Assembly: GCA_028873795.1 (NCBI GenBank)
Contig: JAPPNP010000031.1
Coordinates: 66,545-130,544, forward strand
DNA from: Chloroflexota bacterium
Lineage (GTDB): Bacteria; Chloroflexota; UBA11872
Length of the DNA: 64,000 bases
Reading direction: 5' to 3'
This document shows, in pieces, positions 29,012-35,792 of the stretch. The notes below the pieces were generated by a model. It was given only the letters and a program-made list of their open reading frames with translations, did not search any database and was not told the origin of the DNA. A program made the translations under genes and the position numbers. Positions within the stretch are counted from its first letter, which is position 1. The number at the start of each line of letters is the position of its first letter.

Positions 29012-31807
29012 CTAGGGCCGCAGTCTGGCGTTGAGGTCGCCCGCATAGACTTCAAGGGCCACCTCGCCGTCCTCCGAAACGTCCACCTGCAGCAATGGGA
29101 TGAATCCCACGTGCTCGTGCGCCACGTAGCTGCCACGATCGACGGCGCGGATCAGCCGCATCACGAGCATCCAACGACCGGGACCGAGCGGATCGTCCTC
29201 GCCCAAGGCGCCAACGGACCCGTCGCCGGTGCCGGCAGCCAAGCTGCCCGTGCGTGGATCGAATCGGTAGTAGGCCTCGACGGCAGCTGGCCAGGAGGAA
29301 ATCTGACCCGGAATCCATCGCTCGGCTGCCGGCCGGCCCAACCCCGGATACAGGGGAATCCCGGCTTCCGTCGTCTCGACCACGATCCAATCCTGTCCCG
29401 ACCAGCGGTCCGGTTCCCAGTTATGCAGCGCGAGGGAGAAGTTGATCCATCCGTTTGCCTCCACGACGTCAAGCAACCGAACGGTGACGGACACCCAATC
29501 CCCGGGCGTGAACGGCATGAGCGGGGCGATCGTCCCGTCCGGCGAGTAGACCGCCACACCGTCGTTCCACCAGATCGGCTGCCGCGCCTCCGGCGGGAAC
29601 ATGGCTGGCGTGAACCAGTGCGGCACGACAACGATGTCTGGAATGTGCTCGCCGAGCGGCTCGATCCCAAAGTCCGTCCGCATGTGCATGCGGCCCGGGA
29701 ACACCTCGCCCACCAGCGTGGCATGCACGAGCGTGGACGCGGCGCGCAGGGCGAACGTCGATTGGATCGCCGGGTCCACATAGACGACCGCGGACGGCGG
29801 CACGGACCGCCGCAGCGCCTCATAGGACGCCGGCGCCGGCTCGGCCTCGAGCTCCAGAAACTCGGCCCGCACGCGATACAGGGCGTCGCCCGCGTCCTCA
29901 ACGAGGAGATCGAATAGCCGCGGGTCGCCGAGCCAGCGGCGGGCGCGATCAGGCAAACCGTCCACCCAAGGGTCAGTGGCGTGCACGTATTCGATGCCCA
30001 AGCGCTTGACGGCGGCCGGCTCGAGATAGCGAACGGCGTCCTGGTACTCGGGACCGACCTCGTAGAGCAGATGCGCCGCTTGGATGAAGCCCGATGCATT
30101 GGGCCGACCGGTGGCTGTGGAAAGGGCCGTCGGATGAGGCGAAAGGATGCGCGCCTCGATGTCCGTGTGCCTCTGGATATATTCAGCCAGACGCACGGAC
30201 GTGAAGCGTGGATACACCTCTCGGGGCCAGCCCCGCGTCGCCTCCGCCGCTCGCGCTTCGCCGGTGGCATTGGCCAACAGCACGCCCTGGGCAAGCCCCG
30301 GACCGATGGCCCGCAGGGGTGCCACAACGGTCGGCCAGGTCACGAGGCCCACGAAGACCGCGGCGGCCGCCCAGCGCCAGTGAGATTGGCTGGTCCCGAG
30401 CCGAAGACTCAGCGCGAGCAGCACCGCCAGCAGCGCAAAATTGCGCGCGTGCCCGTCGAGCCTGGTGACGTCCTGCTGCCCGATTTCGTAGTGCAGGCTG
30501 AGCCCGGCAAGGACGAAGAGGCCGGCGACAGCGGCCAGCGCCAGGCTGAATCGATCGCGCCCGGCCAGCAGGGCGGCGCCACCGGCCACAACGAGCGGCC
30601 CCAGGGCCAACAAGCCCAGCCCGCCGGATAGCGTGGTGACGGTCGCCAGCGGTTGCCGCACGCTCGTGTCGTCGACCCAGCCGAATGACAGCGCACCTGC
30701 GTCTTCCCCAAACAGGACGGCGGTGATAATGCCCCCGCCGACGGCCAAGAGCACCACCGCCAGCGCCGGACCCGCCACGGCGCGCCAGACGCCGGCCGTA
30801 ATGGGGCGTTCGCGCCGGTTCCGCAAGAGCTCGACGGCCTCGAGAAGACCCCATAGCGCCAGCACGAGGGGAGCCACGGCTTCGTCCACCAGCCCCAGAA
30901 ACCCGACCAGCAGCGCCAACGTCAGATGGTGCGCCCAACGCCGATCCTTGAGATGCGCGGACCGCTCCAGGACCACCAGCGCCAGGGCGTAGGCCAGGGG
31001 AAACGTCGGCTTCCAAACGTTTGGCGGCACCGACTCGCTCGCCCCAATCCCGTCGACGTAGACCGACCCCAGCGCGGCGCGCAGGCCGGCTTCCGGACTC
31101 CCCGCCGGGACGGGAACTTGTAGCACGCCCGGCGAGGCGAAAAGCAGCGTCTGCGCGCCGGCCGTCAGCAGCAGCGGCCCAAGCGTCGCCACCGCCAGCC
31201 ACGATCCGCGCCGCAGCAGCAGCGTTCCCACGATCAGCGCGAGACTCGTCCAGATGTAGGCGCCCAGCAGCTCCGTCACGAACGCCGGGTCGGGACCCAC
31301 CGGCGGCGTGAGCAGCGCGATCAGCAGGTCGACCCCGTAGTGATACGGCACGGCCATGCCCGGATTCCACGGCAGCTCCGGCGGGTGCGGTCCCCCGGCG
31401 CGCATCGCGGCGATGAACCCGTGATGGATATACGGATCGGGATTCGGGAGCAGCTGACGCCCGGCCAGCGCGACCCAAAGCAGCGCCAGGACTGCCACCG
31501 CGAAACCCGCCGCCACCCGGGGCTGCACGCCGATGCGCTCGCGCCGGCGCCAGGCAATTCCGGCGCCGAGCCCCAGCACGACCGCCCAGGCCACCAGCGC
31601 CCCGGCCAGTCCGGGCAAGAGGTAAATGACGAAGTTGGTGATCAGACCCCACAGGGCGAGGCCGACCACCAGGCTCTGCGCCAGCGCCACCAGGTCGTCA
31701 GTTTGCCCGAGCGTCACCCGCACGACGAGAAACCCGACGGCGGCCAGCACCACGAGCTCGGCTGCCAGCAGCAGCAATCCTGGTACTACCCCGGGATCAA
31801 TGAGCAT
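29012..31807 (-). CDS. Large polytopic membrane protein with C-terminal soluble domain, unknown function
   Basis: Protein of 931 residues. The first 530 or so residues contain about a dozen hydrophobic helices. Between early helices is a loop with PNPDPYIHHGFIAAMRAGG and YHYGVDLLIALL, rich in Asp/His/Tyr as in GT-C type membrane glycosyltransferases. The C-terminal 390 residues are soluble, with Trp- and Pro-rich beta-like segments. I cannot place the family. A GT-C-like membrane glycosyltransferase or a surface-polymer protein are possibilities only. ATG 31807 lies 27 bases downstream of tRNA-Thr on the same strand, so read-through is possible. Confidence 0.8.
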   Translation of the reverse strand: MLIDPGVVPGLLLLAAELVVLAAVGFLVVRVTLGQTDDLVALAQSLVVGLALWGLITNFVIYLLPGLAGALVAWAVVLGLGAGIAWRRRERIGVQPRVAAGFAVAVLALLWVALAGRQLLPNPDPYIHHGFIAAMRAGGPHPPELPWNPGMAVPYHYGVDLLIALLTPPVGPDPAFVTELLGAYIWTSLALIVGTLLLRRGSWLAVATLGPLLLTAGAQTLLFASPGVLQVPVPAGSPEAGLRAALGSVYVDGIGASESVPPNVWKPTFPLAYALALVVLERSAHLKDRRWAHHLTLALLVGFLGLVDEAVAPLVLALWGLLEAVELLRNRRERPITAGVWRAVAGPALAVVLLAVGGGIITAVLFGEDAGALSFGWVDDTSVRQPLATVTTLSGGLGLLALGPLVVAGGAALLAGRDRFSLALAAVAGLFVLAGLSLHYEIGQQDVTRLDGHARNFALLAVLLALSLRLGTSQSHWRWAAAAVFVGLVTWPTVVAPLRAIGPGLAQGVLLANATGEARAAEATRGWPREVYPRFTSVRLAEYIQRHTDIEARILSPHPTALSTATGRPNASGFIQAAHLLYEVGPEYQDAVRYLEPAAVKRLGIEYVHATDPWVDGLPDRARRWLGDPRLFDLLVEDAGDALYRVRAEFLELEAEPAPASYEALRRSVPPSAVVYVDPAIQSTFALRAASTLVHATLVGEVFPGRMHMRTDFGIEPLGEHIPDIVVVPHWFTPAMFPPEARQPIWWNDGVAVYSPDGTIAPLMPFTPGDWVSVTVRLLDVVEANGWINFSLALHNWEPDRWSGQDWIVVETTEAGIPLYPGLGRPAAERWIPGQISSWPAAVEAYYRFDPRTGSLAAGTGDGSVGALGEDDPLGPGRWMLVMRLIRAVDRGSYVAHEHVGFIPLLQVDVSEDGEVALEVYAGDLNARLRP

Positions 31808-33490: not shown

Positions 33491-34285
33491 CTAGCTGGCC
33501 GTGGCCGCCTCGGCCCATCCCGAAACCAGCGGAAATGCTCTGTCGGGTAGTCCGTCGCCGGGGTCCAGTCCCAGGCCGTCGATCACCGGGTGCGGCAGGT
33601 GCGGGTCGTATACCGCCGCTGCATCCACCATTGCGACTCGATGGGCCACGCGCCACTCGTCGGTTAGATTCGGCCCCGCCATGTGAAACGTGTAGCCGTT
33701 GTGAAACGTGCAATCGCCCGCCTGGAGCGGAATGGTGATGCGCGGCAGCCAGGCCACCTCGTCCACGTTCTGCAGCGAGCCCTTGGCAATGTCCGGCCGG
33801 TGGCCATGCGCCACCTCCTTGGGCAGGTCCTTCCAGTGCTGGCTGCCCATCGCGAAGCTCATGCAGCCCATCTCGACGGAGGTGTCCTGCAGCGCGATCC
33901 AGGCGGTGAGCGCGCCGGGCGCGTTGCCGAGCGCCCACAGCGGCATGTCCTGGTGCGGCCGGGTCGGCCCGTCGTTATGCGGCGGCTTGGCGATGATGTC
34001 GTCGTGCCACAGGCGCAGCGGCATGCCCGCCAGCCGCTCGGCGGCCGCCCCCAGCCGGGGAAGCATCGTCAGCGCACGCATGGTCTCGTTCCACTTCCAC
34101 AGCTGCACCCGCTGCTGGTTCGCGCCGTCGATGTCCAGCTCGCCCGTCGGCCCCGCCAGCAGCAGCTTCATCCCCTCCTCGCGGAAGGCGGCAGCCTCCT
34201 CGCGGCTGATGAGTCCCGGCAGCTTCACCGCCCCGTGGACGCGGTAGAAGTCCACCATCGCCTGCGTCACCTCACCGGCTGCCAT
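33491..34285 (-). CDS. Phytanoyl-CoA dioxygenase (PhyH) family oxygenase
   Basis: Fe(II)/2-oxoglutarate-dependent oxygenase of 264 residues that hydroxylates an aliphatic carbon of an unknown substrate. The facial triad is visible: H111-x-D113 in RPHQDMP and a distal His (H201) in FHMAGPN. R212 follows in DEWR and probably binds 2-oxoglutarate. ATG 34285 with GGGAGAGG upstream is preferred over an open frame starting 15 codons earlier. It lies between a sterol-methyltransferase-like gene and GH32 on the same strand. The family acts on lipids, sterol-like and small natural-product substrates, so its position beside the methyltransferase is suggestive but not proof of a shared pathway. Confidence 0.88.
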   Translation of the reverse strand: MAAGEVTQAMVDFYRVHGAVKLPGLISREEAAAFREEGMKLLLAGPTGELDIDGANQQRVQLWKWNETMRALTMLPRLGAAAERLAGMPLRLWHDDIIAKPPHNDGPTRPHQDMPLWALGNAPGALTAWIALQDTSVEMGCMSFAMGSQHWKDLPKEVAHGHRPDIAKGSLQNVDEVAWLPRITIPLQAGDCTFHNGYTFHMAGPNLTDEWRVAHRVAMVDAAAVYDPHLPHPVIDGLGLDPGDGLPDRAFPLVSGWAEAATAS

Positions 34286-34413
34286 CGCGCCTCTCCCTCG
34301 CCACCCGCGGCGCGTAGCAGCGTCGCACACTCACGCGTCGGGAATGAGCCACCCCGAATTCCGGATCGACGCCCCTGCCGCCAAATGCCGGAAGCCGCCA
34401 AGTCCGGCGAGAC

Positions 34414-35433
34414 CTATCCAGGCTTCCGGGCGTGGACCAGGTACATCGGGGTGAAGATGCCCAGCCGGCCCGCTTCGACCATGGCTGTCGCGCACAGATT
34501 CAGCATCTCCGCTACGCGAGCCGCCCCTTTCGGCGCAATCCGGAGCGTCTCGAGCGCTCGCACCGAGTTTTGGGTGACCCAGCGCCCGATCCTGGAACTG
34601 CGAAAGGCGGCCAGAAAAATCCCCGAGCCGACCAATGGCTCGAACCAAGGGATCGACGGACCGGTTTGCTGGGTGAGATCCCGCGTTTCCAAGACCTCGA
34701 ACCCCACCGATCGAAGCGCGTTATCAACGGTTGGCATGTCGTCGATGATGAGCAGCCCGCCTCCCAGCTGCAAGTCAGCCTTGATCCGGACGTGCTGTGG
34801 GTTCTGGGCATCGAATCGATCGGTCATGCAGTACTCGTAGGCGGCAAATCGGGCGCCCGGCTTCAGCAGGCGAAACACCTCGCGGTAAACGCTCACCTTG
34901 TCCGGGGCGCAGCACGTGGCTTCGATGGAGTAAGCCGCGTCGAACGACGCGTCCGGAGCATCCACGTTCAGGAAGTCGCCGTGCAGAAACTCGGCCAGAT
35001 GCGATAGCTCGGCCTCGTCCGTCAGCTTCCGGGCGCGCTCCAGTTGGTAAGCATTGCTGTTGACACCGACGATCTTCGCGCCGGTAAAGCGAGCGATCTC
35101 GATGAGCGGCCCGCCAACGCCGCACCCGAGATCGGCGACGACCATTCCTGGCGTCAGCCCGAGCTTGTGCGCCAATAAGTGCTCGTGGCGCGCGAGCGAA
35201 GCCTTGAAGCTCTCGCCGGGCACGCGCGGGGCAAAGTGAAACGACCGGCCCCAGCCAAACTCAAAGAATTCCGTGACCACGTCGTAGTAGAGATTGTTGA
35301 CCGTGGCGGCGTCGCTTATTTGCGCTACATCGTGCTGGTCACGCTCGAAGCGACGTTCGTATTCGCTGACCGTCGACGCGACACCCGAAGCGCCTTGATT
35401 GTCCTTGAGTGATTTGGAGAGCTTGACTGCCAT
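34414..35433 (-). CDS. Sterol C-24 methyltransferase homologue (SMT/Erg6-like)
   Basis: SAM-dependent methyltransferase of 339 residues that matches eukaryotic sterol 24-C-methyltransferase from end to end. Residues 56-70 read FFEFGWGRSFHFAPR, the sterol-binding signature. DLGCGVGGP (101-109) is the SAM loop, and YSIEATCCAP (168-177) matches the SMT motif with IEAT. The C-terminal part keeps the SMT_C features APKGAARV and GIFTPMYLVHARKP. The start is taken at ATG 35433 (an upstream frame exists to 35496); the ribosome site is weak. The known family methylates C-24 of the sterol side chain. No oxidosqualene cyclase or squalene epoxidase is in the window, so substrates may be imported. Remodelling of host or dietary sterols is an inference. 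Confidence 0.9.
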   Translation of the reverse strand: MAVKLSKSLKDNQGASGVASTVSEYERRFERDQHDVAQISDAATVNNLYYDVVTEFFEFGWGRSFHFAPRVPGESFKASLARHEHLLAHKLGLTPGMVVADLGCGVGGPLIEIARFTGAKIVGVNSNAYQLERARKLTDEAELSHLAEFLHGDFLNVDAPDASFDAAYSIEATCCAPDKVSVYREVFRLLKPGARFAAYEYCMTDRFDAQNPQHVRIKADLQLGGGLLIIDDMPTVDNALRSVGFEVLETRDLTQQTGPSIPWFEPLVGSGIFLAAFRSSRIGRWVTQNSVRALETLRIAPKGAARVAEMLNLCATAMVEAGRLGIFTPMYLVHARKPG

Positions 35434-35792
35434 CAAAACGTCCCGGCCCGGCCATCGCCGGATTCGAGCCGAATCACCGTAGGAGCGGGCCGGCACAGCG
35501 TCAACCGCTTGTCGTCATTCAGCACTCACGCATTCATCGCGAAATTCCGCGACTGTCGAAGACCTCCCGGACGCCTTCTCGACCATTGCTTCTCCTCATG
35601 TCGAGATCCGCACGCCTCACCCTCAAAGAGATCCCTGCGTAGCCCCTCCGTCATTCCGGCGGAGGCCGGAATCCAGTTCGGTCGAATCTGCCGACGCGCC
35701 GGCGGCGTGCAGGGCGTGGTCGCCAGCCTTCACGCGCTCATGTGGTTCCATGGCGGGTGCGCCGGTGGGCGCATGCGCGAGAAGGTGACGCT
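35434..35792. other. Divergent intergenic region with a REP-like element
   Basis: About 360 bases between the methyltransferase gene (leftward) and a TPP enzyme gene (rightward). It holds a well-preserved palindromic element at 35649-35686 and no credible gene. Both promoters should lie here, but no convincing hexamer pair was found. Confidence 0.6.
35649..35686. repeat. REP-like palindrome, ATTCCGGC/GCCGGAAT family, copy 2
   Basis: Carries the same perfect eight-base arms and GGAG loop as the copy at 20981, followed by CCAGTTCGGTC. The two copies differ at one base over about 35. Confidence 0.75.

Follow-up and report, generated by a model that had tools for sequence, protein, structure and literature searches.

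A sterol C-methyltransferase homologue and a putative sterol-tailoring module in a hopanoid-making Chloroflexota bacterium of a sponge-associated lineage

The window analysed is a 64,000-nucleotide stretch of contig JAPPNP010000031.1 (assembly GCA_028873795.1). The source genome is a MAG of 3.18 Mb that is 96.6% complete, and its owner belongs to a lineage of Chloroflexota associated with sponges. The gene of interest, here named SMT-A, encodes a homologue of sterol C-methyltransferase (SMT) and lies beside a gene for an Fe/2OG oxygenase. The features of this region, in window coordinates, are as follows.

33491..34330, reverse strand: PhyH-family Fe/2OG oxygenase, directly downstream of SMT-A (Pfam PhyH, 103.8 bits)
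34414..35433, reverse strand: SMT-A, sterol C-methyltransferase homologue, 339 aa (Sterol_MT_C domain, tree, dN/dS, start common to relatives)
34420..34608, reverse strand: C-terminal Sterol_MT_C domain, SMT-A residues 276-338 (Pfam)
34903..34932, reverse strand: region III, YSIEATCCAP, SMT-A residues 168-177 (alignment)
35107..35133, reverse strand: region II, the SAM-binding motif DLGCGVGGP, SMT-A residues 101-109 (alignment)
35233..35268, reverse strand: region I, the sterol-binding aromatic motif FFEFGWGRSFHF, SMT-A residues 56-67 (alignment)

The start of SMT-A was assigned to the ATG at 35433, and its relatives begin at the same MxVKLS. The mechanical open reading frame extends further to a GTG at 35496, an extension that is not common to the relatives. 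The C-terminal domain matched Pfam Sterol_MT_C at 87.3 bits (E 7.5e-25; cut-off 21.7), and matches to Methyltransf_11, Methyltransf_25 and Methyltransf_31 were also observed. Since Sterol_MT_C matched in 0 of 14 control genomes, the match is not a chance one. In pairwise alignment, identity was 42% with yeast ERG6 (336 columns) and 43% with Arabidopsis SMT1 (334 columns). In the ERG6 reference, D79, Y81, E82, W85, H90, C128, E195, C198 and H199 stand where the mutagenesis literature places them. The dN/dS values of 0.15-0.19 correspond to purifying selection on the gene. A sequence-only reading of the window had claimed an end-to-end match to SMT, and FFEFGWGRSFHF, DLGCGVGGP, YSIEATCCAP and the tail APKGAARV...GIFTPMYLVHARKP were indeed all present. 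Its claim of a bacterial SMT homologue was likewise borne out, with the sterol-binding and SAM motifs largely kept and the protein lying next to the eukaryotic SMTs in an SMT-only tree. By sequence comparison, the open reading frame was confirmed to be a full-length bacterial SMT homologue.

Region I of SMT directs methylation and deprotonation (PMC5711494). In Erg6 numbering, SMT-A was found to keep Glu82, Trp85, His90, Asp125, Cys128, Glu195, Cys198 and His238, including all six members of the region I and acidic/His set (E82, W85, H90, D125, E195 and H238). With ERG6, SMT1 and SMT2 of yeast and plants it has regions I-III and the C-terminal domain in common at 35-43% identity. It differs from them by Phe at Tyr81 (Phe57 of SMT-A), Cys at His199 (Cys175; Cys is found here in 55 of 77 SMT-A sequences) and Gln at Glu246, and by its separate tree branch. 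In yeast ERG6, the Y81F change permits a second methylation. By analogy with this effect, SMT-A might be bifunctional, which is taken as a lead only.

The PhyH neighbour had been thought able to hydroxylate the same lipid as SMT-A, and this was not borne out. The genome carries 42 PhyH genes in 3.2 Mb. In three congeners, a gene for a solute-binding protein (identified as SBP_bac_5 in the first of these, L041) lies between the PhyH gene and SMT-A, at the following positions.

L041, 7631-10084: intervening solute-binding-protein gene
L042, 7042-9429: intervening solute-binding-protein gene
L043, 7082-9466: intervening solute-binding-protein gene

This gene is missing from the window genome at 34331-34413. 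In other genera the neighbours differ, and no PhyH of the same type was found beside SMT-A. With 42 paralogues and an adjacency that is interrupted or absent in relatives, the position of the PhyH gene is weak evidence; its candidacy as the partner of SMT-A was therefore rejected, and the adjacency is probably incidental. Elsewhere in the window, a 931-aa membrane protein (29012-31807, reverse strand) had no Pfam match and was 81% conserved in congeners.

A second SMT, SMT-B, was found in the same genome on contig C63. SMTs were present in 22 of the 151 relatives examined and fell into two types, the window type (SMT-A) and the C63 type (SMT-B), which are about 40% identical to each other. Both types occur in two families of the order, and SMT-B also in a further family of the class. 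The careful tree comprised 67 rows and was built after removal of a truncated row, two rows on long branches and the single outgroup. In this tree, SMT-A grouped with other bacterial sequences in a 44-member clade (bootstrap 100, SH-aLRT 99) drawn from Chloroflexota, Actinomycetota (Acidimicrobiia), Pseudomonadota, Nitrospirota, Nitrospinota, Acidobacteriota, Gemmatimonadota and Binatota, its members being mostly sponge symbionts. With SMT-B left out, the tree required 15 phylum changes, which points to horizontal transfer. SMT-B formed a separate long branch with support of 100/100, and the myxobacterial SMTs branched outside the SMT-A clade. Three eukaryotic SMTs formed a branch of their own, and the deep order of the tree, which rests on these three eukaryotes, is tentative. 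SMT-A stood next to the eukaryotic SMTs in this SMT-only tree; the quick tree had a single distant outgroup.

The genes for making a sterol skeleton were then considered across the genome. The genome encodes a single triterpene cyclase, a squalene-hopene cyclase with the motif DVDDTAE, which passed the hopene-cyclase equivalog at 711 bits and scored 254 bits with the oxidosqualene cyclase (OSC) model TIGR03463, compared to 642-867 bits for true OSCs from other SMT carriers. The gene sits in an hpnC-D-E-F-H operon (hpn names read from the translations). By family models, none of the order's 24 genomes, this one included, had an OSC; the cyclase scores there were of the squalene-hopene type (183-272 bits, against the same 642-867 for true OSCs). 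Within the order, the 20 genomes that carry an SMT gave hopene-cyclase-type scores or none, and DxDDTA was present in all eight order cyclases read for the motif. For squalene epoxidase, no match to PF08491 was found in any of the 24 genomes, although this model is loose and also matches in E. coli and Caulobacter. The absence of both enzymes from the 96.6% complete MAG rests on family models. With a squalene-hopene cyclase as the only triterpene cyclase, de novo sterol synthesis was rejected. About fifteen other genomes with an SMT locus do carry an OSC, so that related SMTs serve cells with an OSC as well as cells without one. The proposal that acquired sterols are altered had been made earlier from the lack of nearby genes, and it is now better backed by the lack of squalene epoxidase and OSC throughout the order (24 genomes).

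Contig C63 carries a set of genes around SMT-B (locus L005), comprising an MMPL/RND pump, a Rieske oxygenase, a fusion of a GPP34 (GOLPH3-like) domain with a P450, and an FAD oxidase. Two of these are located as follows.

L005 of contig C63, 11075-13099, forward strand: GPP34 (GOLPH3-like)-P450 fusion
L005 of contig C63, 13133-14230, reverse strand: SMT-B, the second SMT

The pump matched Pfam Sterol-sensing at 53 bits and also Patched. The Rieske oxygenase matched KshA_C at about 87-88 bits, with a weak similarity to SdmA as well, and is the sole KshA-type Rieske of the genome. The GPP34-P450 is the sole P450; its best solved matches were CYP51s, while its P450 family assignment is uncertain. 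The FAD enzyme is amine-oxidase-like. SMT-B showed an altered region I, with Met81, Val82 (in 8 of 10 SMT-B sequences) and Leu89 in place of Tyr, Glu and Phe in Erg6 (Y81M, E82V, F89L), and carries Ile153 in the same numbering. In this genome, two ERG4/ERG24-like reductases lie apart from the module, on contig C27; they share 82-88% identity with two tandem genes that adjoin the module in a sister genus. The sequence-only reading had missed this putative tailoring module and the second SMT, both on a contig other than that of SMT-A.

Within the order, the GPP34-P450 and SMT-B co-occurred in 18 of 18 genomes (Fisher p 7e-6, the genomes being related and not independent), and the presence of SMT-A did not significantly track the module (Fisher p 0.15). 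In this genome, SMT-A and the module are on different contigs. In a genome of another family (G020), a single cluster of ~11 kb holds SMT-A together with the MMPL pump, SMT-B, GPP34-P450, Rieske oxygenase and FAD oxidase. Members of the SMT-A clade also lie near module genes in several Alphaproteobacteria, a Nitrospinae bin, Nitrospira, Gemmatimonadetes, Binatia and one further bacterium; across phyla, the FAD oxidase is 74-83% identical, and GPP34-P450s near SMT-A are 44-70% identical. In the alphaproteobacterium L120 (1015-11800), three tandem SMTs, two of them members of the SMT-A clade, adjoin a 1583-aa fusion of epoxidase and oxidosqualene cyclase. In another genome, G019 (L040, 6553-10185), an SMT from a different branch lies beside a KshA-like Rieske and a full ERG24-type sterol reductase (421 bits), and no triterpene cyclase was found in this 96% complete genome.

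Given two SMT genes and no skeleton-making gene, the probable role of these enzymes is to remodel host-derived sterols. Based on sequence evidence, SMT-A was postulated to be a sterol side-chain methyltransferase that acts on acquired sterols together with tailoring by the module, and we consider this reading the likely one, with appreciable room left for the others. The owner of SMT-A would make hopanoids and no de novo sterols. Sterols with a side-chain double bond would be taken up from the host or other community members, and SMT-A would transfer at least one methyl group from SAM to C-24. SMT-B, the GPP34-P450, the KshA/SdmA-type Rieske, the FAD oxidase and the ERG4/ERG24-like reductases could then carry out further tailoring of the rings and side chain, and the MMPL-type pump may move the product. 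A bolder version, which we hold to be improbable, is a two-enzyme side-chain elongation in which SMT-A alkylates C-24 of the host sterol and SMT-B adds, for example, the C-26 methyl. It is based on the rebuilt region I of SMT-B and its constant company with the GPP34-P450. We know of no enzyme that explains the C-26 methylation step.

Structural comparison bears on whether SMT-A could be a small-molecule, ubiquinone or tocopherol methyltransferase merely resembling SMT. The AlphaFold2 models of SMT-A and SMT-B were both confident (pLDDT 85.8 and 81.1). A PDB fold search with the SMT-A model returned generic methyltransferase folds only, and the closest solved structures by sequence or fold were natural-product methyltransferases such as MitM, RebM and AtmM. 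No genuine SMT was among the best solved matches, the SMT-titled 6f5z aligning over the SAM domain only. However, the sequence alignments to the best solved chains covered just the SAM domain and its near surroundings, for which reason this identity was rejected; the Sterol_MT_C domain and region I are, moreover, SMT-specific, and such an enzyme is highly improbable here. A cell-made substrate is less remote, yet still unlikely: SMT-A, SMT-B or both might methylate squalene or another isoprenoid, as the triterpene methyltransferases of Botryococcus do. Of these, TMT-1 and TMT-2 methylate squalene and are SMT homologues whose sterol-binding domains are variant; the canonical SMT-like Botryococcus proteins did not accept squalene (PMC3533583). 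The cell makes squalene via hpnC-D-E and makes no sterol, and the changes at positions 81, 82 and 89 of SMT-B would suit this substrate. SMT-A, in contrast, keeps most of region I and so lacks the variant sterol-binding domain. The SMT-A relatives that adjoin an OSC in L120, the SMT that adjoins ERG24 and a Rieske without a cyclase in G019, and the steroid-directed appearance of the module oxygenases and pump also argue against squalene.

The same module genes could instead serve sterol breakdown or detoxification, with the Rieske, P450, FAD oxidase and pump attacking host sterols and methylation blocking or marking the side chain. The match of the Rieske protein to KshA, a steroid-degradation enzyme, favours this, but the protein also matches SdmA, a biosynthetic demethylase. 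Members of the SMT-A clade, furthermore, occur in a biosynthetic OSC cluster of another phylum. In the cases known to us, side-chain methylation and ERG4/ERG24-like reductases are anabolic, which was counted against breakdown. Counted in its favour was a study that reports KshA-like genes of sponge metagenomes as divergent and proposes a pathway for SAR202 Chloroflexi (PMC5790920). Overall, a catabolic role seems unlikely, and methylation and tailoring of acquired sterols is the preferred reading.

Several SMTs of uncultured and sponge-associated bacteria methylate desmosterol or 24-methylenecholesterol in vitro, three of them reaching the 24-isopropyl product; of the 24 proteins assayed, some were inactive on both substrates (Brown et al. 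2023, PMC10070321). These belong to the same family and come from the same kind of source as SMT-A. Many of them have an OSC in the genome or cluster, whereas the order to which SMT-A belongs is OSC-free and hopanoid-making and carries a tailoring module as well as another, divergent SMT. One SMT of that study, from Chlamydiae, came from a MAG without other sterol homologues, and modification of host sterols was suggested (PMC10070321). In Ircinia symbionts of 11 classes, ERG24-CYP51-OSC clusters are often flanked by SMTs, and horizontal transfer was proposed (Kelly et al. 2022, PMC9531527). These are likewise sponge symbionts of many phyla, including Dehalococcoidia, with SMT1/ERG6 enriched. 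The present module differs in having no OSC and in its GPP34-P450 fusion, SMT-B, pump and FAD oxidase. The Msb cluster of a gammaproteobacterium from Melophlus resembles the present genome as a sponge symbiont with an SMT, a Rieske oxygenase and a sterol reductase, but its fused squalene epoxidase/cyclase provides de novo synthesis (PMC7074536). As active bacterial SMTs and sterol clusters of sponge symbionts have already been published, SMT-A is not a first. A literature search found no account of a sterol module lacking an OSC in Chloroflexota or in other symbionts of sponges, which is not proof of absence. New, in the sense of not having been found described, is the combination of an OSC-free module and two types of SMT in hopanoid-making Chloroflexota.

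Side-chain alkylated steranes are read as fossils of eukaryotes or sponges. The relevance to such biomarkers claimed by the sequence-only reading is real and already published, in that a contribution to alkylated steranes could come from bacteria that carry sterol genes (PMC10070321, PMC9531527). If the preferred reading is true, bacteria without sterol-making genes would also rewrite the side chains of host sterols, using a module common to several phyla, and a missing cyclase could not exclude a symbiont input to sponge sterols. SMT-B would then be a concrete candidate for a methylation step without a known enzyme. Should the two-SMT elongation be true as well, symbionts would write part of the C29-C31 sterol pattern of sponges, an animal biomarker.
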